Positions 1 through 64,000 of a DNA stretch of 64,000 bases are shown piece by piece. The stretch covers positions 3,422,077 to 3,486,076 of the forward strand of contig JARUPZ010000025.1 of NCBI GenBank assembly GCA_031213475.1, read 5' to 3'. Origin of the DNA: Nereocystis luetkeana. Lineage: Eukaryota > Sar > Phaeophyceae > Laminariales > Laminariaceae. Positions within the stretch are counted from its first letter, which is position 1, and each line of letters opens with the position of its first letter. The position numbers and the translations under genes are program-made. The notes below the pieces were generated by a model, which was not told where the DNA came from, made no database searches, and saw only the letters and a list, made by a program, of their open reading frames with translations.

Positions 1-1450
1 CCAGCGTTGCTATTTCTACCAGGTACCTACGTCTTGGTTTCACCGGATGTAAAGTTGGCATTATCCATCCCAGCAGCATATTCCCCGCGTACGTGATGCT
101 GCCTAAAAGTGCAATAGTACCTTATACCAGGTACTGACCTAAACCTCACCGGTATACCGCTTTCGTGGCATTTTTCGAGGACGGAGCTTTTGTATCTGTG
201 GTGATACAATTATATAGCCGCACAGAGAGCGATCGTGGATGAAGTTATACCAGCCGTTCGTTTATGTATGTATTGTGCGTGGTGCAAGACGCTTCACCCC
301 GCGGGCCGTTTCGCCCGCTACGCTCGCTCAGAACGAATGACACAACAAAAATGTGTGAACCGTAAGGGGACAGAGTTGACACAATTTCGTCAAAAATGAT
401 TACTTACAAATGCAAAGGTTTACATGCTTCCGTAAAACAAACCGGGCGCCGTGTACCCATGTATCGTGTCACACAACGTACATGCATACATATGCACAAA
501 AGAGGAAGGACGTAAGAGTGCGGTACTGTAGCGATCGTGTCGCCCAGTTTTGAATGATTTTCGATTCCGCGTCGAGGTTCAAAGTCTGTACTGGTACATA
601 TATATATAAAAATTGTCGACCAAAGGCGTCCGTACTTACTTTCGGACATTTTTAATCTCGAAGTTAGGGTAGAATGTTTCATGTTGATGTTACTGTGGGA
701 ATTTTGATCAAGGAGCTTTTGTCGGGGCGCGACTACCTTGCTTTATGCTGCCGCTTTTCAATTCTGACTCGAGCTCAAATATCCGTGTTTGGAATTTCTC
801 GATTGGTTTTCGAATGTTTATCTTGAATTAGTGTGGGGGCGAGTATCTTGCTCCTCCTTGACTGCATTTCCATTTCGAGGCGAGTTCCGAAAACCGAAAA
901 AAAAAATCCGCTTCCGAGTTGTTTTTGCATTTTTTTTTTAGATTTTGTTTTTTCGTACAGTACATGTTTTGCCTTGAAGTTAGCGTTGGGTTTCGCCTCG
1001 AATTTAGCACATAATTTATACATTGAAGTTAGTGCAAGTAATTTACCTTGGAGTTAGTGCGGGAGCAAACCCGGGAGGGCCAAAGTGAAAAACGATCAAA
1101 ATGTAGGAAAATGAATAAGCGAAGACGAGAGTCTTCAGGTGGAGGCCCTCGTAGACGTTTTGATTTTTTGTCGTAGACTCTTCGCTGCGAGCAAGGCTTT
1201 CTAATTAATGATGGCCCGAAAAAAGAATTATTTTCCCCGAAAAAAAGAGAAAAAACGTGCGTGAGTCAAAGTTCACGTTAGACTGTATGTTGTACTGACG
1301 GCAGGGCGGGTATGCAGGTTCCTTGACTTTTGGCAGGTAGGTGCGCCGGGTATGATTAACACTGCCCGGCTGCACTGACGTATGATGCAGCAGCACAGTT
1401 GTACTCACGAGTACGAAAAGTTTGAAAAAAAAAAACTATTAATAGAAAGG
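1..1450. other. Intergenic DNA, no gene recognised
   Basis: Only short ORFs without recognisable domains are present. Two TACCAGGTA words lie at about 17-25 and 126-134. A T-rich stretch near 900-960 and A-runs near 1,420 are low complexity. A short C/T/A-rich stretch at 1,454-1,485 resembles telomere repeats (CCCTAA-like) but is only about 30 bp and internal. Confidence 0.6.
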
Positions 1451-1486
1451 CATAAACCCTAACCTTACCCTAACCCTCACCCTTAA

Positions 1487-1575
1487 CCCCTTTAGAACCG
1501 CAGTCCCACTTGTGGGACAAACCAGTCACATTTCAAGTAGTTTGTCCCCAAAACGGGACTGCGGTTCTAAAGGGG
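1487..1575. mobile_element. TTAA-flanked palindromic MITE (family P), copy 1
   Basis: An 89-bp near-perfect palindrome starting CCCCTTTAGAACCGCAG and ending with its reverse complement, with TTAA immediately outside both ends. TTAA flanks and termini beginning CCC are typical of piggyBac-type elements. There is no coding capacity, so this would be a non-autonomous derivative. It is one of more than 20 related copies in the window. Confidence 0.8.
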
Positions 1576-1579
1576 TTAA

Positions 1580-2840
1580 CACTCGAGTAAAACGGCTTGT
1601 GCACGCGATGCCAAATTCGTTCGAGTAAACATTATTTTGAACATCGGAACTGCTGCCCCTGTCTGTGGTACCGTTCGCTCTCCACGCTCACAATAGATCG
1701 ACCCGATATGGGGTGTGCCCGGTTCCACTCCCTCTCTGTCTCGGTGATAGCCGACGAACGGCGTGCGATAGGCATACGCCGTGCCGGCCGTGCCCCGTGT
1801 CTCTAGCTGGTTAGCTCGGGCATGTGGCTTTTCAGCTCACCCATACGTTGGCGCAAAATATTATATCGAATGGTGCCGCTGTCCTCTGGAGTAAGCGCAG
1901 CATGGACGTTCATTTCCAAACTCCAGATGGCGGCATTTTTTTAACGTACATCGTGTGTGCGCCCGAACGGTAGAAGCGAAGCAAGATCCTCTTCGTTGAC
2001 ACCTGCTGACTGCAAAACCAGGTTACGCCCAGACATGATAACGGGTACTCTCCTTTCTCCTGCCCCTCCCTCTACACGCCGGCGCGCCCGCCAAACCCCG
2101 CGGCGGCCTCACGCTCGCCCTCGTAGTGTGCACATGATAGCACCAGGAGTTGCCACTGTATATCTGAGGCGTTTGTTTCGGAGCATTTGAGGTACTGTAG
2201 GTTTGGATCGCGTTTTATATACTGAAGAAAATGGGCCGTTGCCCATAGAACGGTACACCAGGGACGTACGAGTCTGCGTACCAAAGTTTCGGTAAGTTTT
2301 TCGAGGCAGCTGTAATGCTACCGAAAGTGGAACTACACCGTAAACTGGCGCAAAAATACTCGGTATACCGCTTGATGGTATTTCATACGAAACGAAGGTT
2401 TTGGGGCTTTTGGTTACGGTATAGGACACCCTTGGTACGTAGCCTAGGGAATTCGGGTATTCGTCCTGCTGTATATGTGAATTTGAACTTGCAGGGTCTA
2501 AGTGTTGGATTGGGGGGCGTGGGGGGTCAATTATTTCCCCCGGAAATACTAATTTATTTGCCGCTGGAATGGAGCTCCGATCTTAATCAGGGGTGGAACC
2601 ATCCAGCGACCAAGCGTACCGCAATATAGACATCGCGCACGTTCCACGCCGAGAGACTCTTGATTCCACGTTCCGACATGAGTGATCTATGGAGTGTCCA
2701 TGCCTTACCTGGAGCATATATATATGCCAGGTATGTGTCTTTGTAGCTGTTGCGTACTGTTTTTAGTGGGTCATCTTTGACCAGCAGTATCGGTCGAGGA
2801 TGGTATTGCTTCAACTCAGGTGAGCCCCCCCTTTTCCTCT
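1580..2840. other. Intergenic DNA, no gene recognised
   Basis: Overlapping short ORFs on both strands (longest about 106 codons) show no domain or motif I recognise. The words around 2,360 (GGTATACCGC) recur near 150 and 10,620, which suggests old repeat remnants. Confidence 0.5.
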
Positions 2841-2842
2841 AA

Positions 2843-2931
2843 CCCCTTTAGTACTGCAGTCCCGTTTTGGGGACAAACCAGTCAAATTCCAAGTAGTTTG
2901 TATCCAAAACGGGATTGCGGTTAATAAAGGC
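2843..2931. mobile_element. Family P MITE, copy 2 (degraded right end)
   Basis: The left arm reads CCCCTTTAGTACTGCAG and the right arm is its diverged complement. The right end has lost the exact CCC terminus, but a TTAA follows a few bases further on. Confidence 0.65.
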
Positions 2932-3730
2932 TTAATATCTGCGATCTACTTTTTCCGTAGGTCAAGCTGAGTGCCGTCGGATTGGAAGGACCGAAAAGGT
3001 CAGTTTCCCATACACTGTAAATTCGATGGGGTGCGTCTGGATGCTTTCCTTATCGTCCGTCCGGTCGAAATTGTAGTTGTTGTGCTCTTTGGAGTACCGC
3101 AGGCGAAAGAATTATTGAAAGTGCTTCGCGTCCTGCCCGCGGGTTCTACAAGGGGTTGTGTGCTTTGAGCAGGAGCAGCAGTAGCAGCAGTAGCAGCAAC
3201 AGAGTAGCCACCCATTATCGGAGAGATGTCTAGGCTGCCGGTGTGTGGTGTGATCGTGTCTTCAGAGGGGTGGAGAGAGATGCGGTGGGGGCTTCAAAAA
3301 CGTTTTCGATGGACAGTTTTTCGATGGGATGCGTAGATCGGATTACTCGATCCAAACAGTTGGGATCGAAAAAGTCTATTTTTCATACCTGGTACAGGAC
3401 AAGACACCCGATTTTGTCTCCGGTCGGAAATCGTTTTTTTTTTTCCCCCACGTACTCGAGAGACGGCATGAGAATAAGCCCCCAGGCCATGCTTCGGACA
3501 GACCGCATTCTGTTCCGGCTACCCGCTGCAATGTGAAGCGCACGATGATAGTTTTTACGCGTCACAGGCCCACGTTACAAGGAGACGTTTGGCGACGGCA
3601 ACGGTTCCACCTAATATCGGGCACGTCACCGATTCCTATTTCGCGATTCAAGACGCTTACAGGGCAGATAGGTGCCTGATTCTCATCATCTAGGTCACGC
3701 TGACGGGTGGGGGGCGTATAACCTGCACAT
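2932..3730. other. Intergenic DNA, no gene recognised
   Basis: There are short ORFs only. An imperfect AGC/AGT trinucleotide run sits at about 3,170-3,205. Nothing else was resolved. Confidence 0.5.
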
Positions 3731-3739
3731 GCTCTGGGA

Positions 3740-4000
3740 CACGGTTGAGGCTTCCTGCAATGGAGGTTCCCCCTAAGTTTCCTGAGAATCTCCACTGAAG
3801 GAGCTCCATACGCCTCTCCCCGAAAACTGACTTCAGCAAAAAATTAATCGCATCCCGATGAACAATCCCGTGTCCCAAGTATACAGAAACGTCATTTTTC
3901 GAAACAAGAATGACATTCTGACGATTTTGGGCTAAGGAGCCCCGTCATTCACAAAACAGCTCAGCCGGAACGTGCTGCCTCTATCGCAGAACGCGTCGGT
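3740..4000. mobile_element. Short TIR element (family T), copy A
   Basis: This segment of about 260 bp aligns along its length with 7,279-7,517: a GATGGAGG-like left end, the shared internal words CTGACTTCAGCAAAAA and AATCCC, and a right end GTGCTGCCTCTATCGCAGAAC that is nearly the inverse of the left terminus. It encodes nothing. The two copies lie in the same orientation on either side of the EsV-1-7 gene. Confidence 0.65.
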
Positions 4001-4245
4001 TCTTAAGTTGGATCCGTACTACGCAGATCCTGTGCAACAAACAAACATCTCTTTTCGGTAGGCTAGAGTCTAGATTTTTCTAGACCGTTATACTGCCGAC
4101 GTGTGAACGGTTCAAGACTTCCGGAAAATCGAGACGGGGGATGTGCATATACATGCGCGATGCACAACCCGGGGGCTCTCAATAACGCAGCAAACTCACG
4201 ACAGATGTGCCCGAATACCATTCGAGCTAATACTTTCAGCCAACA

Positions 4246-4620
4246 TCTTAACGGGAAACCAACTCAACGGCGAATTACACCAAACAGAACGATACCCAAA
4301 ACATCTACTACATACAGTAGTCTATTCAAACAACAACCACACAGAACGGCTGGTGTCTGTCGGTCACCATTAGGGGAATACGTTCGTTTCCCTGGGCTCC
4401 CCATCTATTGCTGGTGTTTTCCCTCGTGATCACCCCACCCGACTCCACTCAGCGGCGACTTACACCGAACAAAACAACACCCAAAACACCTACTACATAC
4501 AGTAGACTATCTAAAACAACCGCACAGAACTAACTGCCGCCGTCTTGTCGGTCGCCATTTGGGGAACACGTTTGTCCCCCTGGGCTCCACAGCCACTACT
4601 GGTATTTTCCCTCGCGATCA
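4246..4620. repeat. 185-bp tandem duplication at the 3' end of the EsV-1-7 gene
   Basis: Two units about 185 bp apart share long blocks, for example ACAC-C-AAC-AAAC at 4,277 and 4,462, CTACTACATACAGTAG, and GGGGAA-ACGTT-G-CCC-TGGGCTCC. A third, partial unit begins near 4,615. The end of the coding region therefore lies in repeat-derived sequence, just beyond unit 2. Confidence 0.8.
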
Positions 4621-7152
4621 CTCTACACGACTCCACGCGCAAACTTTCACACCCGTCTTCGTCTGGGTCCACGCAGACGGAGTGTACGTTTCCGTTTCAA
4701 ACCCGCCTCCGCCTCCATATTGGAACACGGATCGGGGCACCTCGCTGGCGACCCACAATTCCGATTTCACTCCTGCAGTAGGAGCAGGAGCAGGACCAAC
4801 AACAGCAGCTGGTTCCAAAAATGGATGGCCTAACCCCCCGACAGCAGCACCACCAGCAGCTGGTTCGGGCAATGGGCGCTTGGTCCCCCTGCTACCCGTT
4901 CTCGTGGATGAAGCCTCCGCCTGACCGGGGGAGGGGCGAAAAAAGTCGGTCTTCCACTCCATTCCTTCGGCACCAACACGGCACGAGCCGATTCTATCAC
5001 CGCTTGTTCCCGAACTCGACACCACCCCATCGCTTCCCCCGACAGAACCCGGGCCCGTGCTGTTGGAGATCAGTCTGCTCTGTAGGTAGGAGTATACGAG
5101 GCCTCCCTTGGCGTGTCGCTCAAAGACATCGTTTGTGTCGGCATCATCCAAGACGGGCGGCACCTTAGTCGTGCCACCTTGGCGGGAGCACCTGCCGGAC
5201 GCGACGTCAGCCACACCCTCATCCGCGCGTGGGGGGCATACGTCCGGCTTGCTCCTGCCGTCAGCGCCGCCTTCCGATGTTTTTTTTCTCGCCCGGCGAG
5301 AGAACCGTTTATGGACGATGATGACCATACCAGGCTTGGCGTGCGCCGCGCACGACACCGCCAACGCCTCCCTGCCAGGAGCGCCGTACCTAGGCCACTG
5401 CCTGCAGCCAGGGTGAGTGCACCTCCTACATGTGACGTTTATCATGCCTTCTTTCGCGTGTGGGGCGCAATAGTCGGGCTGCCTGCTGCCCTCCTCGCCG
5501 AACGACGGGATTGTGAAGCAGCCTGGGTGGACGCACCTCCTAGACACGAGGTTCACCGTGCCTTCCATGGCGTGTTCAGCGCAGGTTACCGCCTTCCCGC
5601 TGCCGTCCACGCCGTACGACGGGGTTTTGTAGCAGCCTTCTTGGAGGCATGTCTTGGATACGACGTTTACCATCCCCTCTTGAGCATGTCGGACGCAGAG
5701 CTTCGGCGTGGTGCTGCCGACCACGCCATACAACGGGGTCTTCCGGCAGCCTGAGCTAGAGCACCTGCTGCGTGTGAGCTTGGCCATTCCGTTGACGGAG
5801 TGTGCCTCGCAGAGTTCGGGCTTCTTGCTGCCTTCCAGACCGTGGGTCGGGACTTTCGCGCAACCCGGATGAGAGCACTTCCTGGAGGTGATGTTAACCA
5901 TCCCTTCTTTGGCGTGTTGGGAGCAGACTTCCGGCACTCTGCTGCCGTCCACGCCGTAAGCCGGCGTTTTCGTGCAGTCTGGGTGAGAGCACGGTTTCCG
6001 AGTGAAGTTGATCATTCCCTTCTTGGCGTGTAGGCCGCACCATTCTGGCTCCTTGGTGCCGTCAATACCGTACTTCGAGGGTCTGGAGCAGCCCTCGGCG
6101 GCACACGTAGTGCTGAAAACGTACGCCGCCCCCTGCTTGGAGTCCGGGAAGACCGATTGCTGTTTGTTGCTGGTGTCGACGCCACTGTCTGGGGGGTTCG
6201 CCGAACTAGGGCTGGAGGGAATCCTAGATGTGGCGCTATTCACCTCGTCCTTGGCGTGTGGGGATAAGACGTCCGGCTTGTCACTACCGACCACGTCGTG
6301 CGAAGAGGTTGTGGTGCAGCCTTCGGCGGATACTTTTTCGTTGGTGACCTCTGCCGTCCCCTGCTTCGAGTCCGGCGACATCAACTCCGTCTTGTTTTCA
6401 CGGTCTACACCATGCGCTGGGGATTTCGCGCAACCAGAACGCAAGGGTCTCCTGTGCATGACGTTAGCCATACCCTCATGGGCGTGTGGGGCGCAGAACA
6501 TTGGCCTGCCACTACCCTTCAAACCGTAAGACGAGAACTTCGAGCAGCCCGGGTGAGCGCACTTCCTCGCACAGACGTTGACCATCCCCTCCTCGGCGTG
6601 TTTAGAGCAAAACCTTCGCTTGCCGCTGCCGGGCCGACCGAACGACGGGACCTTCTCGCAGCCTGGGTGGAGGCACCTCCTAGTCGTGATGTTCATCATC
6701 CCCTCCTTGGCGTGTTGCGCGCAGGTTTCCGGCCTGTTGCTGCCGTCCACGCCGTAGGCCGCGACTTTCAAGCAAGTTGGGTGGGAACACCTTCTGCACG
6801 TGACGTTGATCATTCCCTCCTTGGCGTGCGGTGCGCAGAATTCTGCCCTCTTGCTTCCATTCAGGCCGTACCCCGGTATTTTCGTGCAGCCTGGCTCGGA
6901 GCACCTCCTAGACACGACGTTCACCATCCCCTCCAGGGCGTGTTTAGAACAAAACACCGGTTTGCTGGTGCCGTCCAGACCGTAAGTCGAGCTTTTGGGG
7001 CAGCCTGGGTGTCCGCATTTCCGGCGACCGAAATCAAGTTTAACGATGTCTGACTGCGGAGAGCAAACCTCCGGGTTCTTGCTGGGGCTCATACCGCCCG
7101 AGGCCCTCGCGATGAAGCAGTCGGCGAAGCCGTTCTTGATGGCGTCGTCCAT
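4618..7152 (-). CDS. EsV-1-7 repeat protein, 844 aa, single exon
   Basis: The protein carries 17 consecutive 38-residue repeats from about residue 46 to 692. The consensus is C-x4-C-x16-C-x2-H-x12, typically CxHPGCxK.P.YGxxGSxxPxxC..HAxEGMVNVxxRR. This is the EsV-1-7 domain, named for a phaeovirus gene and known in brown algae from the developmental regulator IMMEDIATE UPRIGHT. Repeats 1-5 and 9-15 keep all three Cys and the His, so they probably bind metal (inference); repeat 15 has one extra residue. Repeats 6-8 and 16-17 have lost key ligands but keep exact spacing. The Pro/Gly/Ser-rich tail (693-844) contains a basic GTKRPLPEP stretch. No signal peptide or membrane segment is seen. The start at 7,152 is the first ATG of the open frame, and the stop lies beside a tandem duplication. 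The molecular role is unknown for most members. Confidence 0.93.
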   Translation of the reverse strand: MDDAIKNGFADCFIARASGGMSPSKNPEVCSPQSDIVKLDFGRRKCGHPGCPKSSTYGLDGTSKPVFCSKHALEGMVNVVSRRCSEPGCTKIPGYGLNGSKRAEFCAPHAKEGMINVTCRRCSHPTCLKVAAYGVDGSNRPETCAQHAKEGMMNITTRRCLHPGCEKVPSFGRPGSGKRRFCSKHAEEGMVNVCARKCAHPGCSKFSSYGLKGSGRPMFCAPHAHEGMANVMHRRPLRSGCAKSPAHGVDRENKTELMSPDSKQGTAEVTNEKVSAEGCTTTSSHDVVGSDKPDVLSPHAKDEVNSATSRIPSSPSSANPPDSGVDTSNKQQSVFPDSKQGAAYVFSTTCAAEGCSRPSKYGIDGTKEPEWCGLHAKKGMINFTRKPCSHPDCTKTPAYGVDGSRVPEVCSQHAKEGMVNITSRKCSHPGCAKVPTHGLEGSKKPELCEAHSVNGMAKLTRSRCSSSGCRKTPLYGVVGSTTPKLCVRHAQEGMVNVVSKTCLQEGCYKTPSYGVDGSGKAVTCAEHAMEGTVNLVSRRCVHPGCFTIPSFGEEGSRQPDYCAPHAKEGMINVTCRRCTHPGCRQWPRYGAPGREALAVSCAAHAKPGMVIIVHKRFSRRARKKTSEGGADGRSKPDVCPPRADEGVADVASGRCSRQGGTTKVPPVLDDADTNDVFERHAKGGLVYSYLQSRLISNSTGPGSVGGSDGVVSSSGTSGDRIGSCRVGAEGMEWKTDFFRPSPGQAEASSTRTGSRGTKRPLPEPAAGGAAVGGLGHPFLEPAAVVGPAPAPTAGVKSELWVASEVPRSVFQYGGGGGFETETYTPSAWTQTKTGVKVCAWSRVE

Positions 7153-7278
7153 CGTTACCTAGTGGGGGTGTGGGGACCAAGGAGCAAGGGGTGTTTGATA
7201 ACGTCAGAGGCTTTCAAAATGATGTGGAGGTACTGAGTAGGAGAACGGGATCGGCTGTGTTCCAGACGTTCTGGAGGC
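7153..7278. other. Upstream flank of the EsV-1-7 gene
   Basis: This is the short 5' flank of the minus-strand gene, before the family T element. I see no clear TATA box or other promoter motif. Confidence 0.4.
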
Positions 7279-7520
7279 GAGACGCGTTCTACGATGGAGG
7301 TTCACCCAAAACAAAATCTGAGGATCCTCACTTGAGAAGCTCCATGCCTCATCCGAAAGCTGACTTCAGCAAAAATCAAAACGAATCGCGACGAGTAATC
7401 CCATGGCCCGAGTCTTCAAAACGTTATTTTTCGAGATTGACACTCCGACTTTTTGGGGTCAATGAACCCCGTTTTTCAGAAAAAATATAGCGGAAAAGTG
7501 CTACCTCCATCGTAGATCGG
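7279..7520. mobile_element. Short TIR element (family T), copy B
   Basis: The left end is GCGTTCTACGATGGAGGTTC and the right end is GTGCTACCTCCATCGTAGA, an inverted pair of about 15-18 bp. The interior aligns with copy A. Isolated ends of the same family, GCGTTCTACGATGGAGG and a variant, occur at 29,377 and 30,076. Confidence 0.75.
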
Positions 7521-8575
7521 GTCGGGACGATCAATCAGTGCGTGGCGTGGTCATCGGCAGGCAAAGCAACGGCGTCCGCAACGCACGAAAGAGCCTAACC
7601 ATGTCTGAGGCAAGTGATAGTGCAGCTGTCGCTAGGAACTCGCACAGCACGATATTTCTGACCAGTCCTCGAGTAGCGGCTCCAGTAGTTCTGCGTCGGA
7701 AGAAAAGTATAAACCCAGGGACGAACGGTCAAGGAACTCGTCAAATTGCATGCATGATCACACCGAGAACACAAATCGATAAAATCGACATAGACAGCTG
7801 GAATCGGGCGCGTGATTTATAATGGCTCCTCCAAGTCGGCTGGTCTGCGGCTGCTAGCACTCATCGATAGGCGTCTGCCGCCGTTCTGCAGTCGTTAACT
7901 CTCTCTCTCTCTCTCTCCGCTTTGTCTGCGGCACATGAGGCTTGTCGTGCACGCACGGAAGCCTCGTCTATTGCTGCCTGTGCGACTGCGCCCCCAACGA
8001 AGCGGGCCTGACATCCCGCCGCATGAAAACCACGTAGACGAAACCCACAGCAGCAACCACGGGAGGGCAGCCGATCGCAGCAGGGACTCCAGTGATGCGC
8101 AAAGCATTAACGTACTCTTCCCCTAGCCCGGCGGCAAGCGCTTGCCCTTTACAGATACCCCGCCGGTGTCGATGGATTTCTACTGCGGCCCCCAACCCAT
8201 GCCGACGAGGTATCTCGATGTGCGACATGCAGACGAGATCGCATAGCACCAGGAACCACAACGGAGCAGAAGAGCGCGGCAGGCAACCCAGGGAGCGATT
8301 CCCATCCGCGATACGGTGTGTGCACTCCGAGGGCGCCGGCGGTCCGGCTGCCGAGTGGCTAGACGTCACCTACACTGATGGCCCAACCCGCTCTTCTGTG
8401 CTACGTCTCGACGGCCGCAATACCTTAAGCTCAATACTTGAGTCTCAAATCACTCCCGCCTCCAAAAAAAAACGCGCGATCCTCTCGCCTTTGAACGCTC
8501 TGCTATCTATTTTCAATCTGGCTCATATCCAGCTTCTGCCATCTGGAAAAGGGCCACCCTTTCATTGGGCACCGG
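7521..8575. other. GC-richer intergenic DNA with a (CT)n tract
   Basis: Contains a (CT)n run at about 7,900-7,918 and overlapping ORFs on both strands (133 codons minus, 191 codons plus at 8,092-8,667). No domain is recognised in either. Confidence 0.4.
7968..8369 (-). CDS. Hypothetical 133-codon ORF, possibly non-coding
   Basis: I do not recognise the product. The C-terminal half contains one hydrophobic stretch (GVPAAIGCPPVVAAVGFVYV) followed by RR, which could be a single membrane segment. A 191-codon ORF on the opposite strand overlaps it, and at most one of the two can be real. No splice partner, polyadenylation signal or repeat of the ORF was seen. Confidence 0.15.
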   Translation of the reverse strand: MTSSHSAAGPPAPSECTHRIADGNRSLGCLPRSSAPLWFLVLCDLVCMSHIEIPRRHGLGAAVEIHRHRRGICKGQALAAGLGEEYVNALRITGVPAAIGCPPVVAAVGFVYVVFMRRDVRPASLGAQSHRQQ

Positions 8576-8579
8576 TTAA

Positions 8580-8678: not shown

Positions 8679-8754
8679 TTAAGTGGGAAGCACGCATTGG
8701 CTCGAACTGAAAGCAGGCACGTCGTTGTCAGAATTCTGGGACAGAGAAAAATTT

Positions 8755-11035: not shown

Positions 11036-11039
11036 ACCA

Positions 11040-12860
11040 GCAGTATCATTTAATCAAGTTATTCATAACAGTACGGTTTGCACCTGCAAGGTAGTGTACC
11101 GGGTATCTCGCGAACTAACTGTAGATCATGCCAGGAACACACCGTGCGTGTGCACATAAAGCGCTCGGAAAACGAAGTGAAATAAGTATACAAGAGGGCG
11201 TGCTGGACCAGACCCGATCCACAGGAGGAGCAGAGTGACCGTGTCCACACTACACGAAAGCACTTCGGTAAAGCAAACGCAGCTGGGGTGTTCCGTATTT
11301 CACCAGGGTCTGGCGGCATTGCTTTGCGGGAGATCCAGAAGATTCACAAAAATTTCCGCAATGCCGCAGCTGTTGGCTGTAGTACGTGGACGGCCGATGC
11401 TGTGCTTACGGAAAAAGGATTGAAGTGGGAGGTATGTACACGCTCGTTTAAGCAAAAAGCCCCAAATGTCGCTGGCCATGAATGCCGCATGCAGTCGCTG
11501 CTTGAATGCCACATATTTGCTATTATACTGACCAGATTGACGAGCACAACAAGAGGGTGGTATACCGCCCTTCCTTTATCAAATGCGTAGGGCTGGCACT
11601 GGAGGCGAAAACGTGTCCCGTCCAGCCACAGGCCTTCAAAAGGGTACGTAAGAAATAGCCAGGCGTTTCCGCAGGAAAACACTTTATTTTGCGAAACGAA
11701 CCGGTTCCAGGTACTTCTAGGCATCGCGCAAATACGCGAAGAACTGCCTGCGTCAGTTCAGTCATAATATTTAACTTCAAAATCGACGGTATACTGGAGC
11801 TAAGTAACTTCGAGGCAACGCCTTATTTTTTTGCACTTTTACCGCATAAAAGCCCAAATATACACGCCGGTTTTCGGGTATTAAATCTGACAATGTGCAC
11901 AGGTACTCCATGTGCTCCTGTCAAGCCGTCGACTCATGTTTTGTGTTGTATTTTCCGCTGAAAAAATTGGATCCGGTAAAGCCATTTCTTATGCAGGCTT
12001 ACTTGAATTGAAACCTGGGCCCTTTTCACGAAGGCGAAAAACCAGAATGTTGTGCAACCTCAAACGTCGCAGTTTCGTCAGAAACAAAAAACTAAACCTC
12101 AGCAAGTTTGATGCGGCGACTTTGAGCATTCTGGGCTCCAGTTTGTGTCAAGGCTAAAGGCTGCAATGTGAGGTTCAAATCTGAGCCATTATATAGATAG
12201 GCTTACATATTTGCTTTAGATAGTATATAACACACGCTCTCACCGGAAGTAGTGCTCGTACCACACATCTACGTGGCACACGAGTATAGATAGCTGCCGC
12301 ATACTCAAAATGTAGAAGCGGCCGCATACAAGCCCACATACATTCGCCCGGCTCTCAGCCAGGAAGTATGTGTCATTACGGCATCGGGGAGGCCTGACGC
12401 GGTGGGTGTGCCCCATATTTATGATGATGATGATGAGCTGTCGACGAACGAGCTCTGCTGGTTGGGCAGCTTGTGTGTATACCCGTTCGACTGTTCGTGT
12501 TGCTGCGAGCCTGCAATCTTCTCCTCGAGGGGCGACAGGATGTTCTCGACTCGCCGAGCACGCTCGGCATCTGGGTGCCGTCGCCGCTCGATCGGGTTCG
12601 AAAGCGCTGCGCGCGCAGAGGCGGCACGTGATGGGCGGTGCTCGGGTGGCTCGATGCTACCTATATTGTTTTGAACGACTGCGACCGGGCACCTGCTTCG
12701 CGTGGCGCCAGCAGCACTGCTTCAAAGTATATCATATATATATGCCTGGCACAGCAGCACGTGGTTTGCATTTCAATTTATATTACAGCAAGCAGTAGTA
12801 GGTCTCCGTGTCATGAGAAGAAAAAATAAATGCGTATTCATTAAAGTGTTGAGGCCTGTA
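11040..12860. other. Intergenic DNA, no gene recognised
   Basis: ORFs up to 142 codons occur, notably 12,370-12,798 plus, which includes a GAT-triplet run read as Met repeats. None shows a domain, and the ORFs on opposite strands overlap. Confidence 0.4.
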
Positions 12861-12864
12861 TTAA

Positions 12865-12960
12865 CCCTTTTAGAACCGCAGTCCCGTTGTGGGGATAAAC
12901 CAGTAACATCTTAAGTGCTCATTGTCCCCGAAACGGGACTGCGGTCCTAAGTTAAGGGGG
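12865..12960. mobile_element. Family P MITE, copy 4, TTAA on both sides
   Basis: The left arm CCCTTTTAGAACCGCAG and the complementary right arm are flanked by TTAA at 12,861-12,864 and 12,961-12,964. The right terminus carries a few extra bases (GTTAAGGGGG). Confidence 0.85.
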
Positions 12961-14959: not shown

Positions 14960-17300
14960 GTCGACCTCGACGAGGAGTGCTTCTCAGTTTTTTTTCTGTA
15001 CATCCCGGAAAATTTCGGTATTTACCTAATAGTCTATAGGAAAATGCCGAGAATAATTACCGAAATTTCGGGAATATATATACATACTACTGAAAAACAG
15101 GCCTTTTTTCAATTTTATTCGGACATACATGCCTGCTTGGTGTTTGACTTTCCGACCAATCAATGCAAACTAAAGCGAACAAAAACAGTATCAGAATTCA
15201 ACAAAAAAGTGCTTGGTTCATGCGGGCCCTTATTTGTTTGCGCGCTCATCAGAAAATACACCTGCCTGCACTACTTAAAATAAGACGGCACAACCAGGAG
15301 AGGCAAAAGGGCCCCATTTTCGAAACCTAACAAAATAAAATAAAAACAAGAAACGGCGTAAAGGCCCAAATACCCCCCCCCAATGGTCAAATGACTAAGG
15401 CAAGCAACAAATGAGTACGCCCCCCTAAAAAAGAGGTACGTTCGGGTATATCGGGCGAAAACACACTCAAAGATCCTTCGGGGACGGGTTGGCACGGGTT
15501 CACCGAACACGTGTGGCGAATTCAAAGTTCCAAGGCCTTAGACCTATGCCAATGGAAACGCGAAGTCAAAAAGTTTTCTTCGAAAAATATTGTTTTCAAA
15601 GAATAATAGCCGAAAACATCCTCCTACCGCCGCCGTGGGAAAAAAGAAAAAGTGTCAGATATTTCTTCTGATTTTTTCTAACGGCTGCAGGCGGCGCAAA
15701 TTGTTTTTTCTCGTTGCAAATTGTCAGCACGCCGATGAAAATCAGCTCGTGCGACGATAGACGCTCGATCTCGACATGGACTCAGCCCACGGCCAACCCG
15801 CTCAGTGACGGGCAAGGCCAAGGAGTGTAGATGACGGCCTCGAAGATATCAGGTGGATCCATGGTCTAGGAGGCAAGAGCTTGCCGGCAAAGTCCGACGG
15901 TATCCTCCCCAACTTGAAAAAAAAAGTATTGTTGCCATTCGAGACGGATCGAGGAAAAATATCATATGTTTCGTGCATGCCAGCGACCAATTGTTTTTTT
16001 TATCATACGCCTGGCCAGTGCCCGCCAGATATCACCGGCCGTTGTGTGAACACGGTGACCCTAGGGTGGGTCAGAGCCCCTAACGAGCGCACTCCGTTCA
16101 GAATTCATGACGCAATCGTTGGATTTGTCGGTCGATCATCCGCCTGAGTTTTTCTGAAGCCGATCTTGGCCCAATATCGGCCCCAGGATTGTTTTTTTCG
16201 GGCTTTTCCAAAATTTTGGAACTTTCCGTGAAAGGTTTGAAGAAACTTGCCCGTAGCAAGCTGTACCTGAACTTTATTTACGGGTATCTTTGGAATTCAA
16301 TTTTTTATGAGAACTTTGCGTTTCCATTGGCCTACTGATAGCTCTTGTCTCCAAACAACGGCGTGGACACTGATTGGATGCTCAATTTTGGGGGCGTAAC
16401 TTTGAACCAGCTCGTATCGACTACCTGGTAGTAGTCAGTCGTATACTACCAGGTATACGGCTGTAGTTTATTCGTATTCATGTTGTAAGAGCAAACAACA
16501 CGGTGGCGGGAGCGACAAGACCCTTATAAGACGGTGAATGAAAGCGGGGCAGGCGCGAGGGCACACAACAGAACGATAATGCTACTACTACTGCTAACAG
16601 ACAAATCGGAAAAATGGGAACGAAGCCTAAAATGAGAACCAAGCCGTATCTATCTCCAGAACCATGTGGTGTATCAGAGAACCAAAATGATCCTGCGAAA
16701 CCCCTTGGCCAGCCCTGTGAGAGGAGCTCGTCAGAACGGTCATGCTCCATCTCGTGCCTTCGGGTGGGCGCAAAAAGCGATATACGCTGGCTCTATTGTG
16801 ATTTCTCTAGATGCTGGCTACCGCGGCGATGCCGAGGACTTCCAGCCTGAGCGACAGATCATTCGAAGGCTGCTGTACAGCCCCACAGGACTGTCAACTT
16901 TTTTTCTTGGAGTTGTACACAATTGGTTTGCTTTCTAAAAAAAACCGTCCGTTCCCATTTTTTGTTTCGTTCCCATTTTTCCGTTTTGTCTGTTTGCTGC
17001 TATAAATTCCTGGAAATATCTTGAAAGGGTCACAACGAAAAGCCCAGCAGCAGTGGGGCAGAGTGGCTGCACAAAAAATTCAAAAATCATTTTTAAAAAA
17101 AAAGGATACACTAGGAGGGTGTTTGCAAAGGAACCGATTACGGTTGGGTCGCGAACCACAGGGTACTCACCAAACCAAAACATAATCGGGTTTGAAACCG
17201 CCTGCGAGAACCCAAAACGATCATTTCGGTTTCGAACTGGAAATAAAATTCTAGGAATTTAGAATACAGCAACAAATAAATGACAAATTTAAAAAACCGA
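14960..17300. other. Intergenic DNA, no gene recognised
   Basis: AT-rich with short ORFs. Two scar words, TACCTGGTA (about 16,418) and TACCAGGTA (about 16,447), flank a 20-bp spacer. Duplicated words such as TTCGTTCCCATTTTT occur near 16,960. Nothing else was identified. Confidence 0.45.
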
Positions 17301-18480
17301 AATAGAACTACGAAAAATGGAACACCGACGGCTTCGCACGAGATGTAGATGCTGCTCTCTGCTGCTGCTGCGTGGCTCGCTGCGTTTGTGTGTACTCTGT
17401 GTGCTCTATGGCAGTCATGCGAAGAGTGTCAATCGATGCGACCGGGGCCTGTTGTGCAGTGCGTGCGTAGGCGTGCTGTGGGTGTGCCTGTGGTGCGGTA
17501 ACACGCCCCAGAGCCCAGAGTACCTCTACTTTGTTGAGTTGCCGCAGCAACAACAAGCAGCACAGCAGAGCAACAACTTCAGCAGCAGTCCAAACGCGCA
17601 CGGCGCCGTCAACGATGCTGAAGCTGCACCCTGCCAGCCCTCCGCCGAATATGGCCGTATGCCTTTGACGGCCATAACGAGAGCTTCGCGTTGACACGGA
17701 CTCGACGAATGGTCCGTGCGCTTGGTTAGATAGATTGGTGGTGAGAGGCAACCCATGTATCATGCCTCACTTCTTCTGGCTGCTGCTGTACGCTGTGGGA
17801 TGAGAACCTGACGTCGTCAACGATTATTATTTCTTTCCAAATACGATGTTTTCATTCGTCCGGGGCGATCCGGGTTGTCCTGGCAAATAACTTAATGATC
17901 CTAATCGAAACCCAAGAAGCTAAACCCAGCCCGCAAAAATTGTGAAGATATGGGCCATATGAGCCGATTTTGAGTCCGGATTTTGGGAAGTTGATTTTTT
18001 TGGGGGGTCGGGAGAATAGAAATAGTAGGCCAAACCAAACCATAATCTGAACTTCGCAAACACCATATATATATATCGCAGCAGAACGAAGTACATTACC
18101 TGGTAGTATTTGCAATTTTACTTGGTTCTACGGGCAGTAGTTCAGATTCGTGTCCTCCCCCTGCTGTCTTCTACAGTAGACCTACAGTTAGTTGTAGGGA
18201 AAAAAGTCGAATCCGATCTTGTTTATATTTTACTGTAGTAGTATGTACTGTACTACAGCAGCAGTGCGTAACCTCTCGGGATAGGACAGGCTTGGTGCAG
18301 CAGGTGCGAGACTTCTTCGCACTTTAATCCAGCATGTGGGTCAAATGCCCCGCCTGTTATCACGATACGATAGGTACCTGGTGCATGCGTCTCGTACGTA
18401 TGCGCCAGATAGCATCAGCGCCTGCAGGCTTCGAACTGCGGAGGATGAGTTCGGAACAGCTGTAATTTGAAATTACCCCC
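17300..18480. other. Intergenic DNA, no gene recognised
   Basis: Opposed ORFs of 125 codons (17,317-17,694 plus) and 151 codons (17,308-17,763 minus) overlap and contain CAG-type low complexity. A scar word lies at about 18,098. Confidence 0.4.
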
Positions 18481-19789: not shown

Positions 19790-21555
19790 GACAAACACGC
19801 TGAGCCCAGGGAACCAATCTGCTGTGATATTTCAAATAATCTGCTCATCATGGTGCTTTTTTGCATGTATGTATGTTAGCAATCGATACGCAAGGTAGAT
19901 CTCGCTATTTTATCATCCAGTCGGTACGTTCGTTTTTGCAAGTTATATACGAGTGCTGGTATCACGCAGCTTTCAAAGTTTGAGTATCGATCACGCAATC
20001 GGCCGAACTCACAGATAGTTGACGTATCTGTGTTCCAGGGCAAATAAAAAGTATATATATATCGCGACATGTGTTGAGAATATGGGGGCTGAGAAATCCG
20101 GACTGATCATTTATCAAAAACGTACCTGCCCTGGTAAAAACTTACAGCTAGTATAAGTAACCATTTATGCTAAGCGAGGGACGCTACTCTAAATTTAATC
20201 CTGTATTATCGTAGGCTTTAAGAGCCTACCCTATGCTCAACGTTGAATTTCAAACTGTTTTTGTCTTGAAACTTAGGTAAGAATTTACAGCTAACCATTG
20301 TGCTCAGCTAGGTAAGATTTTAGAGCTAATAATTCGTGCTAAGCAAGGAATGCAACTCTAAATCCTACCTGGTAAAAGTTACCCGGTATATAATACAAGG
20401 CGCTTCGCTCCGCGCGGGCGGCCTTCGCAGCCTGCTACACTCGCTCAGGAAGGAAAAATACATCAAATTACTATGCCAAGCAGACAGAGGTCCATGATTG
20501 AATTTAGCTTTTTTAGAATCGATCGTAGTTGCAAACTAACTACTGGCGCCATATGATCCAGGAGAAAACAGCTCGGACGCCACATACCCTTCGCGTCGCG
20601 GGTGGTTGCCGGAAGTACGTCGGACTCTACGCTCGCTCACATGACGTACGTACGCACGTACATACCCGAGGTAGGGCAATCCTTTCCTCTTTTGATGTGT
20701 TTGCTGTAGTATGTACTGCTGTACGACAGAGAAAGCACAGCACGGCACAGCGGCACCGCAAGAACAATGAAAATGAAACCGAAAAAAATTGGGAAGAAAA
20801 AAATGTCCCCGTCCCCTCATGAAATACTTTTGTGTCCGATTGAAACACCTTGCACCGGTAAAAAAAAAAAACGCCCATCAGAGCTTCTCTCTCAGCCTCG
20901 TATGCCGCCCGCCCCTCTCACGACCACCTCGCCACCTATTCGGTCCGGGTAAAATTTTCCTTACCCTCTGCCACAGTGAGCCCCGTCGCCCGCCTCGCGT
21001 TAAGCCCGGTGCTCACTGTGGCCGTCGTTCGCCTGCTCGACAATGTTGTTATTCAGACTGGGCACCTCCCCCTGTGATTTTCAACCCGGTCGTAAAAACA
21101 AGCACCGCTTGAATATTATCTTGCAATGCCGCACGACCCTTATAACTCGTACCTGGTACGTACCCTATCATAAATCGCAAATCGAGGCCCGACAGAGCCT
21201 ATTCGTGCATCCCTCGTGTCTCGAGGCACACGTGTCGACTAGGCACGAAAGCGGCGACCGCGCTTCTTGCAATGCCCCCTCTACCCACCAGCACCCGCTG
21301 ACAACCGCGACGGCGCCGGGCTCAACCGCGGTGCCGTACTCGGAGTACACACACGCACACGAACCGAAAGAAGAAAAGAGGAAGACAGGACCGAGAGTGC
21401 CAAGAGAAAGGGAGGAAACAAAGACCCGCAGGAAAGGTCCGGCAAGTAAGTGCTGAAGGGAGGCGGTTTCGAAGTGGGAGCTCTGAGAGGCCAGGGATGC
21501 ACCAACCGAGCACACTCAGAGAGTGAGATCTAAGTCCGTGGTTCTATAGTAGCAT
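19790..21555. other. Intergenic DNA with diverged internal repeats
   Basis: Between 20,130 and 20,400 the motif TTACAGCTA-(ATTTATGCTAAGC)-CTCTAAAT recurs three times in diverged form. A scar TACCTGGTA lies at about 20,373 and another at about 21,150. No gene was identified. Confidence 0.45.
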
Positions 21556-22379: not shown

Positions 22380-23050
22380 ACTGTACTACCAATAAACTGT
22401 TTGCTTCAACGATAAAATATCGTGAGTATTCAAAATATATTGTTCCTAAGGCTGAGCACAACGCACTCACGTACATAGCACGGCCGCACTAGCTTGATGC
22501 AGTGAGCGACATCTGTCACCGCACTCATTGTCACACTCCTACTACGCACTGTGGTAGCCGAACCACACATCGGAGCGTCCGCAATATCACAAAACAAAAA
22601 GTTACACAATATCGACGGTATTCACCCGTACGCAAAACATACTCCAGGTGGTTAACATGGATTTTCACGTAGTCCTTTTCGTCTCACGGCGCAATGCGTC
22701 CCGGTGCAATTTTACCCAACGGCACCGCACCGTGCGATTAACCTTTGCAAATCCGTATCTTACAGCACCGTAGCATTCCCAACATAGAAACACCGCAGCG
22801 CAATGTGCAAACCCATCGTTGGGAACCCTCAACGAAGCGCGCCGCTGACTGCCATAGCCCGTAAAGAGTGAGAAGGCATTCGCACCGCCCAATATATGAT
22901 ACCTGGTATCCGGCACCTGGTAGTAATAGTCTACTACGGTGCGGGGACGGTGCGGTGCTTTTTTTCCACTATATTTAAACGAAGTGAAAACCATATGCAT
23001 TGCTTCAAACCACCCCGCACCGCACCGTATGATAAACAAAACTAGGAACA
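22380..23050. other. Intergenic DNA, no gene recognised
   Basis: The 200-codon minus-strand frame covering 22,665-23,267 runs into the CACCG array and is Arg/Cys-repetitive, so it is not supported. Scars occur at about 22,898. Confidence 0.4.
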
Positions 23051-34365: not shown

Positions 34366-34560
34366 CTAACGAAAACAATTTCTGCACCACAGACGCGACC
34401 TATACCGGGTATATTCCCTCAGCTGATGAACTCCGTCATGCAGAAGCCTCTGCCTTGGAAGGCAAGGAGAAGCGCTTACGCACGTATTTCTCGGGATCCG
34501 AGAGCGGTTGACCCACCATTCAGGAAATGGCGACAACGTGTCAGCGCTCACGGAGCATGC
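34366..34560 (-). pseudogene. Partial duplicate of the fucosyltransferase last exon
   Basis: The minus strand at 34,500-34,551 encodes VSADTLSPFPEWW, matching the C-terminal VSADKLAPFPE of the exon at 34,806-34,982 and lying about 300 bp downstream of it. Here the frame continues for about 50 more residues instead of stopping. It may be a truncated tandem copy, or it may preserve the original C-terminal end. Confidence 0.5.
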
Positions 34561-34805: not shown

Positions 34806-49905
<15,100 letters not shown>

Positions 49906-49925
49906 CTAAAGGAACTCGAGCAACG

Positions 49926-49958: not shown

Positions 49959-50106
49959 ACGATTTTGCCAAGAAGGAGAGAGGGAGATGCGACGATGAGC
50001 CTTCAGACGCATAGCACGGCGGTAGAGGGAGGAATGGGTGGGTCAATATACCCTGGTACCTGGTAACTTTCTGAACCTCCTCACTCGATTTGAGCCCCCC
50101 CACCGA

Positions 50107-50457: not shown

Positions 50458-52260
50458 GGCTGATTCGGCTCTCGCTTAAGTCGACATTTGTTAAGGCGGC
50501 AAGTTGGCTGCACATCAGCTGGCCTGGCCAACCGACGCGCTGACCGAAGTCAGCTGGTTGGATAGCGAAATTACCCTGAAGGAGCTAATAACCAGGGCTT
50601 TTCGCGGGTCATCAGGGGGGTTTCAAAATGTCGCGGGTCGGGTCGGGTCGGGTCGGGTCGGGTCGGGTCGGGTCATTTATTTTTCAAAATCTCGCGGGTC
50701 GGGTCGGGTCGGGTCGGGTCAAAGGGTTTTAAAATCTCACGGGTCGGGTCGGGTCTGGTCAAGAGGTTTCGAAATCTCGCGGGTCGCGTCGGGTCGGGTC
50801 AGGAGGTGTCAAAAATGTCACGGGTCGGGTCGGGCTATGACCCGTGAGATACAAGTCATTCGCGGTTTAGGTTATCATGACCCGCGATTTTTTCCGGCTG
50901 AACCGCACGTCCGACCCGCGGGACTGGCCCACGGATCAGTATTTTTGCTAACCTGTGCAGCTACCTGCCGGAAGGCCGCCTTTCTGACCCGCGGGTCTGG
51001 CCCACGGGGCCGACATTGTGCAACAAAAAATAGTCGACGTTTGCCGCCCAAAGGCTTCTCTCGTGCCGACACGTAGACCTCCGAGAGCATATCATAGCGT
51101 GTAGAATAATAATAATAATCACACGCGAATCCCGGGTCGGATGAAGCCGTACATGTAACAGTAGTATACTATTGTGTCCATGTGCACGTCCGTCCATTTT
51201 CACAAACAAAACGGCCACACTCTCATGCAGGGTGCAACAATGAAGAAAAGACATGACAGCAGTGTAGCAAGCCCGAGCTCGTCACGGCAGCAGCAGCAGT
51301 AGTAGCAGCAGCAGGCCCCGGATCCTCGCGGATCGTGGCCCCCGCTGTCAGATCCACCGCTTCAGTGCTTGCTGCTCGAGGCCGCACAGCTAGGCCGCTC
51401 GCCGGGGCGCCAGCAGAAGCCATCGGGTCAGAGCTATAGGGTCGACCCAGGGGCCGGGAGGTATCCGCCCGGCAGAGTGCGGGTGTGTGCCTTTCTTTAT
51501 GTCATCATCTTTGTGATCATCGTGGTCATTTTTGAAGCGCACACAACACAATTCTCCAAACAAATACTAAAAATAAAAAAACGAACACAAACGTACGACT
51601 TTTTCGGAAAAATACAAGGGACCAAGGACCATCCAACCGACCAACGCACCTACGTTTATATCTTTGGGCCCGTGAGCTTTCGTCTTTGACCCGTATGTCA
51701 TGGGTCCAGTTGACCCGACCCGCATGAAACCCGTGTCTCACGGGTCAATCGGAAGGTGGCGGGTCGGGTCGGGTCGGGTCGGGTCAAAGTGTTTTGAAAT
51801 CTCACGGGTCGGGTCGGATCGGGTCAAGGGGTTTTTATATCTCGCGGGTCGGGTCGAGTCGGGTCGGGTCAAGAGGGTTTCACAATCTCGCGTGTCGGGT
51901 CGGGTCAGGTCAACACACCTCAATATTTTCGCGGGTCTGACCCGACCCAACCCGACCCGACCCGTGAGGTTTGACCTGACCCGCGAAAAGCCCTGCTAAT
52001 AACTAGCCGGGTAGTACACCCAAGACATACACGTAGCCCTAACAACTACCAGGTACAGCAGTATGCTGATTCGGCTCTCGCTTCAGTCGCCTGACATTTA
52101 GGCGGCAAGCTGGCTGCCCATCAGCTGGCCTGGCCAACCGACGCGCTGACCAAAGTCAGCTGATTGGCTAGCGAGTTAACTACCCTGAGGTAGCTAATAA
52201 TTAGCCGGGTAGTACAGCCAACACATACTCGTAGCCCTAACAACTACAAGGTACAGCAGG
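50458..52260. repeat. Tandem duplication of a ~200-bp unit, first unit split by a hAT-like element
   Basis: Unit 1 is 50,458-50,592 plus 51,996-52,068. Unit 2 is 52,069-52,260. Shared blocks include GCTGATTCGGCTCTCGCTT, CATCAGCTGGCCTGGCCAAC and GCTAATAA-TAGCCGGGTAG. Confidence 0.9.
50593..51995. mobile_element. Non-autonomous hAT-like transposon, 1,403 bp
   Basis: The termini are CAGGGCTTTTCGCGGGTCA and its near-perfect inverse, bounded by the 8-bp direct repeat CTAATAAC at 50,585-50,592 and 51,996-52,003. A CAGGG terminus and 8-bp target duplication are hAT hallmarks. Subterminal regions are GGGTC pentamer repeats (50,635-50,840 and 51,765-51,965). No transposase-like frame is present. Confidence 0.9.
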
Positions 52261-52819
52261 ACACCAGGAATGCAACACTACTTGGTACGTACATGCATAC
52301 ATGTTTTTTCAAAACTTGGGAATCCGAAAGAGCAACCGGAACAAAGACAACTTCGGAGTCCGAAAATCGGAAACGATTCGGAATCATCATCAGGACAACG
52401 CCCAGCTCCAGCTTGAAAAAAAGAAGATACAAGAAAACAGGGAGATATTTACGCCCCCCCGCCCCCGCCCCCCCCCCGCCCCATCCCTCCCCCCCTAACA
52501 AAAAACAGAATCTGCAAAACAAAAACACATACCGGTACCAGGTACCAGGTACCGGGTATACTTCATCTGCTGGATATACCGGGTGCGTATAAATAGTTGG
52601 AGGCGACGATCACCCGTGTACCAGCGGCGTGAGAGTGAGCCGCCGAGCAGTGCGGTTAGGCTCAAGCTGCGCCCGCGCCGTACAACGCCTTGCATCGTAC
52701 CCCGCCACGCGAAGCGCCTTGCATACGATAATAGTACCTACATTTAGGTTCAGTCCGCTGGTGTCGCAGCGTACAACTATAATAGCTACTTACCAGGTAC
52801 CGGGTACCCGGTAACTCTT

Positions 52820-53560: not shown

Positions 53561-54319
53561 GTTACCTGCGACCACGGACTGCATTGTATTTTGTGAGTTA
53601 ATGTGAGAACAAACAACAACAAAAAACCCATCATCCTGCGTATGCTGGCTGTGTGACCACAATGGGAAATACGCCGATTTCCGAAGAGACCTGAGGAATG
53701 ACCCGAGGGTACAAAATAACCCCAGGTCAGGCAAAGGTGTCAGGAGACATGTCAAGCAAGGCAGAACCTGTGCTGTCAAGGTTGTAGGACCGGCGTTTCC
53801 AGATTAAAACCTACCAGGTACCTGGTATTAATTTGGGGTCAGTCAAGACATGTCAAGACAAAGTTGGTGTCTGTCAAGGGTACGAGTAGGAGACCTGTCT
53901 GGGTAGACTTGAACAACTTGAAAATATTTCCGATTGCGAATACTAACGGCACACCGATCTCTCCGAAAATGAAAGGGTATTTTTCCCAATCTAGCGTATC
54001 AGGTATGTACCAGCTAATACGTACACCAGGCGCATAAACCGATTTAGCACTGCACTCCCGTTTGGGGCATGACTTACTTGGAACTTCGTACATACCATAC
54101 AGTATACTATTAATAGTATCAAGTAGTTGGGTACTTGCAAATAATATCGAAGAGGTGGGTACTTGGAATTTCAAGCAGTACTCGTATCAAATCGGTGGGT
54201 ACTTGGAATAGTGTACTACTGCTGTAGTACCATGGTACCAGGTACCTGGTATCAAATAGAGGTAGGCCGGTACTTGGAATTACAGCAGTAGTATGTATAC
54301 CAGGTACCAGGTACCTGAT

Positions 54320-55540
54320 ATCAGATAGGCATGATAGGTGGGGGTCGGTGGAGTGCCGCAGTACTGCTGTACATCGGCACAATAACACCGACGTGCTTGA
54401 GATCTCCCCATACAGGAGTTACGAGTACTGCTGGCTGTAGTTAGTTGACTTTATGTCGGGACGGCTTTGGTATGCTTGTTCCATTTTGTCTCTCCCCCGG
54501 ACCCATAAAACGAATACAACTACGAGTAGTATACTACTGTAACTACGTACCCGTAATAATACGATCATCGTACGTATCGTGTGTCCGAACTACTGTAATA
54601 CTCAGACACGACAGACAACTTACACCACCACAGCAACATGAGCTTCCCTTCCCTACAAAAGGGATCAGCCAGCCAACCCAGCGGGACCCAGACAACAGCA
54701 TCCGCCGCTCCTATTAATAGTATTGTCAGCCACAAAAAGAAATCACGAGGGATCTCGGAGGTAAACGTTTGGGAATGAACGACATGGGGCGGACGGAGCA
54801 ACACAGCAGTAAGTATACGAGTGCGAGCGTCTTTAGAAAAGACACGACAAGCAATCTATGCACGTGAAGATAAATAAGAAGTGTCTCTTTTTTAATGCAC
54901 CGAGTACTTTTACAGCAGCTATACTCGTAGCAGCAGCTGAAGTAGTATGTAGAGTACTTGATGGGTTGTCTCTGATCTCACCAGCATTCTCCAACTTCTG
55001 GGACGTAACAACGTCACCGGCGAGCCAGCAACCGAGGAAGAAGGCCTGAGTTAGGAGGCGCCCGAGCTTCGCCATGACGCCCACTTAGCTCGACTACCCC
55101 TGCGAAGAAGCTGCTGGGCAAACTGCGGTGCCAGCAAAAAACAAGGTGGTCGCAAAACGCGGGACATTCTCCAATAGACAGGAGGGAGGTGATTCAGATA
55201 AAATTCAAGTATATATGAAACCTCCCCTTGGATTGAAATATGAATATATTGAATGGAAACCCTTGATCGCATCATACTCCCGACATCGAGACTCTCACCG
55301 CGCTTGGACAGAGACTTCGAGAGGACCACCTATTCTCGCGCTGGCAAAGGATCTGCACTGAGGCTCTACGGTGCCATCGCAGCCGGTAGACGTCGGCCGT
55401 TGCAAGCTCGCCGCGAAAGTATAAAGTGGACGACAAATTGCCTCTGCTGCTGGGGTTGTGTTTTTTCCCCCATTTCCTCCACCACCACAGGAGACTTGGA
55501 GACTTGCCTGAACTGGGAGTGCCCGACGGTGACGAGATAT
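54320..55540. other. Presumed 5' flank of the CAF1 gene
   Basis: No promoter element was recognised. On minus, 54,620-54,780 contains a hydrophobic frame (FFLWLTILLIGAADAVVWV) with a good GTAAGT donor, but its phase does not fit the fucosyltransferase, so it is left unassigned. Confidence 0.35.
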
Positions 55541-55541
55541 C

Positions 55542-64000
<8,459 letters not shown>

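Follow-up and report, generated by a model that had tools for sequence, protein, structure and literature searches.

Nine-letter palindromes scattered through the Nereocystis luetkeana genome are probably excision footprints of a CC-tipped, TA-duplicating transposon family

A stretch of 64,000 nucleotides of the Nereocystis luetkeana genome (assembly GCA_031213475.1, contig JARUPZ010000025.1, positions 3,422,077 to 3,486,076), hereafter the window, raises the question of why one nine-letter palindrome, TACCNGGTA, recurs so often in it and what could have left it there. The exact count is 37, with 17 T, 14 A, 4 G and 2 C as the centre base, i.e. 31 W-centred and 6 S-centred copies, and Markov shuffles of the window (40 for each order from 1 to 4) average 0.7-1.7 with a maximum of 5. 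The initial annotation, made from the letters alone, had considered the mark strongly over-represented and had estimated about 30 W forms by eye; the estimate is close to the 31 counted, and its 19 coordinates all fall at real sites with an offset of 0-14 bp (52,033 is really 52,047). The over-representation itself, 37 against about 1 expected, persists against a Markov background and in counts over the whole genome, as it had proposed to check.

In the window, strong enrichment is restricted to the one-base spacer, as TACC-N{k}-GGTA is found 37 times for k=1 and 0-6 times for other k up to 30, except for k=8, where the count of 11 largely reflects chained copies. When odd 9-base palindromes are ranked irrespective of their centre base, TACCNGGTA comes first in the window, the runner-up reaching 13. 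Besides, 20 other 10-kb pieces (200 kb) hold 96 copies vs. 3.5 expected, with 0 to 13 per piece, and the spacer variants k=0 (14) and k=2 (18) there stand above other spacings, the chained k=8 apart. Over the 465,085,209 bp and 1,987 contigs of the genome counted, taking the identical pattern reversed as the control, TACCWGGTA occurs 182,395 times vs. 1,744 and TACCSGGTA 10,882 times vs. 1,899, in other words 193,277 sites or one per 2.4 kb.

What such a mark, or scar, adds to the DNA appears from the comparison of plain and scarred paralogs, the difference being exactly TACCNGG at a TA, i.e. a 7-bp insertion with duplication of the TA, which bears out the TA specificity proposed earlier. Over 264 kb (the window and the other pieces), 122 sites or chains were found, two near an end were dropped and 120 were tested. 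Under a strict definition of the plain-TA paralog (identity of at least 75%, gap-free within 6 bp of the junction), 10 of the 120 have one, six of these 10 lying in the repeat MITE1, and one strict match, the scar TACCTGGTA at 39634-39642 within a GATA microsatellite, is to be discounted; a looser test gives plain-like paralogs for 13/120 and scarred paralogs for 8/120. MITE1 has the ends TATTACGGGGGACCATAG and about 15 copies in the window. Its copy at 49429 reads GGTCC-TACCTGG-TATTTAATATGG (scar TACCTGGTA at 49458-49466), exactly 7 bp more than the plain-TA copies, which read GGTCC-TATTTA, and its copy at 41677 reads AAAAACC-TACCTGG-TATATATTT (scar TACCTGGTA at 41726-41734) where the other copies have the plain TA of AAAAACCTATATATTT. 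In three further copies, the TA scarred in copy 41677 carries the variants TACCAGGGTA (44932-44941) and TACCAGGTG (42828-42836, minus strand) and the possible variant TACCAATA (44508-44515). The scar TACCTGGTA at 21150-21158 corresponds to a plain TA in paralogs in L019 and L035, as does the two-scar chain (A, T) at 53812-53827 in a 76% paralog in L019.

Most window sites have flanks with no visible relation to one another, in keeping with the unrelated contexts noticed at the outset. Besides the scars located elsewhere in the text, the window contains TACCAGGTA at 17-25, 16447-16455 and 47909-47917, TACCTGGTA at 3386-3394, 18097-18105, 38783-38791 and 57161-57169, TACCGGGTA at 11097-11105 and 34403-34411, and TACCTGGTA at 50057-50065, which adjoins the variant scar TACCCTGGTA at 50049-50058. 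A target duplication of 5 or 9 bp was considered and rejected, the N5 on either side being unlike each other, and so was the idea that the adjoining N5 are older decayed scars, as they bear no likeness to CCNGG. A piggyBac-type element, with a TTAA target and seamless excision, does not match the TA target and 7-bp remnant found here. Of a different kind are the hairpin-like stretches of 28 to 37 bp at 2706-2733, at 16422-16455 and from 18375, bounded by TACCTGG and CCAGGTA (or CCAGATA); they are perhaps abortive excision products, and they were rejected as the source of the scars, being too few.

The target TA is often accompanied by another one. Once the scars were removed from the sequence, 28 of the 29 window sites could be scored, the remaining one being lost at the window edge, and 92 of the 93 sites from the other pieces. 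In the window, a second TA lies exactly 7 bp off the target TA in 15/28 sites vs. 3.3 expected (p = 1.1e-7), which is the top of all distances from 2 to 40, and TA draws matched for local TA density have a mean of 5.1 and never reached 15 in 20,000. The second TA is 7 bp leftward for TACCAGGTA at 125-133 and 48852-48860 and for TACCTGGTA at 16422-16430, 22900-22908 and 63576-63584, while the scars TACCTGGTA at 20366-20374 and TACCCGGTA at 20380-20388 share a single empty site holding four TAs in a 7-bp register. In the other 200 kb, the second TA at 7 bp is found in 35/92 sites vs. 11.4 expected (p = 4e-10); distances of 4 (33 vs. 13.9) and 2 (30 vs. 13.6) are also enriched there, and several others weakly, so that an A+T-rich setting is part of the target preference. 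Pooling the 120 sites, the preference is essentially confined to 7 positions per side and is gone at -9, the half-sites being most marked at -7 (T in 107/240, 61 expected) and -6 (A in 105/240, 59 expected). The two TAs of the scar itself, TA-CCNGG-TA, have the same 7-bp spacing.

Scars can also follow each other directly. Two-scar chains are located at 36932-36947 (A, T), at 53812-53827 as mentioned above, at 54236-54251 (A, T), preceded by TACCATGGTA at 54228, and at 54298-54313 (A, A), followed by TACCTGATA, and three-scar chains at 52536-52558 (A, A, G), preceded by the variant scar TACCGGTA at 52530-52537, and at 52791-52813 (A, G, C). The window chains amount to 8 adjacent pairs vs. 1.5 when an 8.2-fold preference is simulated; target preference alone does not account for them. 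The other pieces hold only 3 adjacent pairs among 96 sites, which makes the cluster at 52.5-54.3 kb unusual.

The scars are young. One-mismatch forms number 26 vs. 21.9 expected in the window and 118 vs. 75.2 in the 200 kb, where some decay is thus visible, about half of the latter excess consisting of TACCNGGCA/TGCCNGGTA (27 vs. 6.8 expected), a specific change at the outer TA, and the divergence per scar site is estimated at ~3-6%. MITE1 copies are mutually ~63-93% identical in gapped alignments, so that most of them are older than the scars. In at least one case, TACCAGGTA at 52047-52055, the scar was in place before a local duplication, the duplicate at 52245-52253 differing by one base. 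Regarding coding sequence, the stand-in was open frames of 220 aa or more and good complexity (23,162 of 264,000 bp), in which 3/133 scars lie vs. 11.7 expected, bearing in mind that many such frames may not be genes; an equal excess inside exons, named at the outset as an argument against transposon footprints, was not observed with this blunt proxy. Of ten window frames submitted to Pfam, the only one above the curated cut-off was a gene for an EsV-1-7 repeat protein (4618-7158, minus strand), a single open frame of 846 aa and free of scars, with 12 matched stretches of PF19114; the best named relatives of the protein include Ectocarpus proteins at ~45% identity over part of its length.

As for a candidate source, TA-flanked inverted-repeat tips CCACTCYGTCC...ATATAAG are present in the window (58524, 43764 and, in a CCG form, 43903) as well as in L018 and L036; the tip CCACTCYGTCCC...ATATAAG appears to resemble the tip of plant Stowaway elements. 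The window copy at 58524-58805 is degraded, TA-CCACTCCGTCCCTG ... CCGAACAGAATGG-TA with tips alike at 13/20 positions, and itself contains the scar TACCTGGTA at 58637-58645 and the variant TACCAGGGTA at 58760-58769. CC tips lie on the minus strand at 43744-43764 (TA-CCACTCTGTCCC) and 43883-43903 (TA-CCGCTCTGTCCC), and related ones on the plus strand at 42514-42534 (TA-CCACTCTGGGCG) and 42273-42293 (TA-CCGCTCTGGGTG). Genome-wide, TACCACTCYGTCC was counted 1,045 + 1,056 = 2,101 times vs. 9 + 9 = 18 for the reversed pattern, and tips with G as the third base 147 + 135 = 282 times vs. 18 + 22. This genome count carries the case for the CCACTC tips, rather than a simple probe search of 320 kb, whose result was weak (6 tips when up to 2 mismatches were allowed vs. 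a shuffled-probe mean of 2.0 and maximum of 6). An alignment of ten tips, each including 20 bp of flank, is invariant at TACC and at several bases after it, and at no column before the TA. In contrast, similarity around CCCTACCTGGGGTATG continues past the TA, and this repeat was rejected as a source.

Full elements, defined by both tips as TACCACTCYGTCC ... GGACRGAGTGGTA, were also found. Two 83-bp elements, C1:14488590-14488672 and C2:49035-49117, have the facing tips TACCACTCTGTCC at both ends between TAs; both exact pairs come from among the first 100 TACCACTCYGTCC places listed, so there are at least two, and a third inverted-repeat element of 83 bp between TAs, L018:5162-5244, has 14/18 matching tip bases. 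In the 83-bp elements inspected by eye, the flanks show no TA at 7 bp. In L053 (C1:20359587-20362478), two facing CCACTCCGTCC tips that match each other lie 2,892 bp apart, the sole long pair examined; none of its open frames exceeds 144 aa, hence no autonomous copy there, and it represents either one long non-autonomous element or a pair of distinct ones. The initial annotation had put forward a TA-specific transposon of high activity with ends starting in CC and had suggested looking for full TA-CC...GG-TA elements. The 7-bp TA insertions, the youth of the scars, their depletion in long frames and the CC tips all support the former, and the 83-bp elements correspond to the latter.

Each TACCNGGTA is therefore read, with good though not full confidence, as the excision footprint of a Tc1/mariner-type (Stowaway-like) family with tips 5'-CCACTCYGTCC that duplicates TA on insertion, the putative link between tip and scar resting on the fit of the letters. 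Insertion favours a TA that has a partner TA 7 bp off, the same spacing as in the scar. At excision, one strand would be cut at the tip and the other ~3 nt inside, leaving each flank with the 3' overhang CCA; the last bases of the two overhangs would come to face each other (A against A), each overhang would be extended by copying the CC of its partner as GG, and the mismatch would be resolved to A or T, giving TA-CC(A/T)GG-TA. CCG tips would similarly yield the rarer S-centred scars, TACC(G/C)GGTA, and the A:G ratio of tips (2,101:282) agrees in direction with the W:S ratio of scars (182,395:10,882), the ratios themselves differing. Full filling of the CCA overhangs predicts TACCATGGTA, seen once in the window (54228-54237), and the spacer-2 variants listed from the 264 kb are mostly TACCAGGGTA, TACCATGGTA being rare, which counts against this way of joining.

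The numbers call for a comment, as 193,277 scars vs. 2,101 exact CCA and 282 CCG tips make ~80 scars per exact tip. Mutated tips are not included, therefore the true scar:tip ratio is lower, if still large. A scar needs just one visit and no survivor, so that ~80:1 could arise in a family with frequent jumps and few net gains of copies, unusual as this would be. Within the single assembly, no site turned up in both a filled and a scarred state. More tentatively, and with something less than an even chance in our opinion, the system may recognise two TAs 7 bp apart and recreate this geometry with every scar, landing sites thus breeding landing sites; the ~190,000 young scars, ~80 per surviving exact tip, would then be its main trace.

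Several other explanations deserve to be weighed against excision by CCACTC-tipped elements. A different, nearly extinct TA transposon with CCWGG tips, cut 5 nt inside, would leave self-complementary overhangs that anneal around one mismatch, which explains the core directly and follows the pattern of the Sleeping Beauty overhang footprints; this is improbable, as 264 kb contain no CCWGG tip family, no base consensus follows TACCWGG and, in the accounts available, known cuts are 2-3 nt inside. The scars being very many and the elements comparatively few, one may also think of programmed or somatic elimination of TA-bounded DNA segments. Programmed DNA elimination of this kind is not known to us from brown algae, the excisions of ciliates leave just a plain TA behind, and the same assembly holds elements with fitting tips, all of which renders elimination quite unlikely.

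The scant decay in the window (26 one-mismatch forms vs. 21.9 expected) is what a functional palindromic site under selection would display, and it has to be set against the decay of the 200-kb sample (118 vs. 75) and the fact that sites arise as whole 7-bp insertions in old repeats; selection is accordingly given very little weight. No more is granted to a spread of the motif by slippage, duplication or gene conversion, despite the chains, the pair 54236/54298, the duplicate of 52047 and the several MITE1 copies scarred at one and the same TA, since most window sites lie in visibly unrelated flanks and A, T, G and C centres are mixed within chains. Finally, CCWGG is the Dcm methylation site of E. 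coli, which could evoke a sequencing or assembly artefact; an insert that includes a TA, avoids long open frames and obeys a target rule makes this the least probable explanation of all.

Transposases exist in the genome, and those elements that bear one and have visible tips end in TTACGG or CAGT. Pogo-type DDE_1 domains gave 46 matches in the genome, 12 of which were examined, and the pogo-like element in L048 has tips starting CAGTACCGG and adjoining TA. A Tc1/mariner-like element of 4.27 kb is present at three loci (L050 15-4287, L051 and L052) in copies ~99.5% identical, with inverted repeats TTACGGAGGCTCATAATTAG between TAs and a transposase frame of 483 aa matching DDE_3 at 47 bits; this TA-duplicating family is young, and the element looks like an autonomous kin of MITE1. 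The search with PF01359 returned 0 matches, control genomes likewise giving 0. That with PF13358 also returned 0, yet a transposase of the same genome matches PF13358 at 47 bits, so that this zero is a miss and not an absence. In viral contigs, two MITE probes found 0 matches, and the chained motif was found in nine contigs, whose ~82 kb contain 3 more motifs, which is near chance.

Other short TA-bounded motifs were noticed in the window along the way. TATTAATA occurs at 1437, 13531, 18608, 40705, 41754, 52918, 54108, 54712 and 60658 (9 vs. 1.1 expected), five times as CTATTAATAG, and could be a footprint of the TTACGG-ended family, i.e. MITE1 and the 4.27-kb element. TAC(A/T)GTA is counted 28 times vs. 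6.9 expected, four of them within a tandem repeat at 33.4-33.7 kb, and the CAGT-tipped pogo-like element of L048 is noted beside this excess. A second TA-flanked MITE family, with arms TAACCCTTTTAGAACCGCAGTCCCGTTTTGGGGACAAAC, is found at 1483-1579, 12848-12916 and 57054-57148, among others.

In the open-licence PMC literature, no report of this footprint was found and, among the matches listed for the string TACCAGGTA, no title deals with transposons. In Ectocarpus, Mariner-Tc1 elements are described, in the available part of the survey, as 17 families of mostly non-autonomous copies, including a 4.4-kb autonomous family and a 217-bp dependent one; the words footprint, excision and palindrom- are absent from the main text as available (PMC12477816). 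Footprints are usually studied singly, and a genome with one per ~2.4 kb naturally documents the rejoining of transposon breaks and the choice of targets by a transposase. Modest numbers of elements can go together with a huge cut-and-paste activity, and each scar, by adding 7 bp, shifts the reading frame and makes an easy marker between strains.

Among known systems, plant Stowaway-like MITEs and their mariner partners are described in the excerpts available as short TA-flanked elements with conserved tips and small tip-derived footprints (PMC4561436, PMC3695323). The elements presented here are likewise short, TA-flanked and conserved at their tips, and would leave footprints of this sort; they differ by the host group, by the tip CCACTC and by scars far outnumbering exact tips and, unlike for the plant mariner-partnered MITEs, no transposase was found linked to the CCACTC tips. 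Sleeping Beauty also duplicates TA, and its cut ~3 nt inside the tip leaves the 3-nt 3' overhangs that form the footprint (PMC7827188); Mos1 is similarly described, in the part of the literature at hand, as cut about 3 nt inside the tip. Whereas the Sleeping Beauty footprint is the 3-nt overhang, here CC would come from one side and GG from the other, with one shared base. The same accounts of Sleeping Beauty and Tc1/mariner excision, as far as they extend, make no mention of a TA pair 7 bp apart. TA is also the target of Passer (pogo) and ISY100 (IS630), for which the footprint measures 0-4 bp or the cut lies 2-3 nt inside (PMC9976928, PMC2170065), and the available portions of these reports describe no CCNGG core like the present one. 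Against this background, the type of element looks familiar, and it is the scale and the two-TA rule that stand out.
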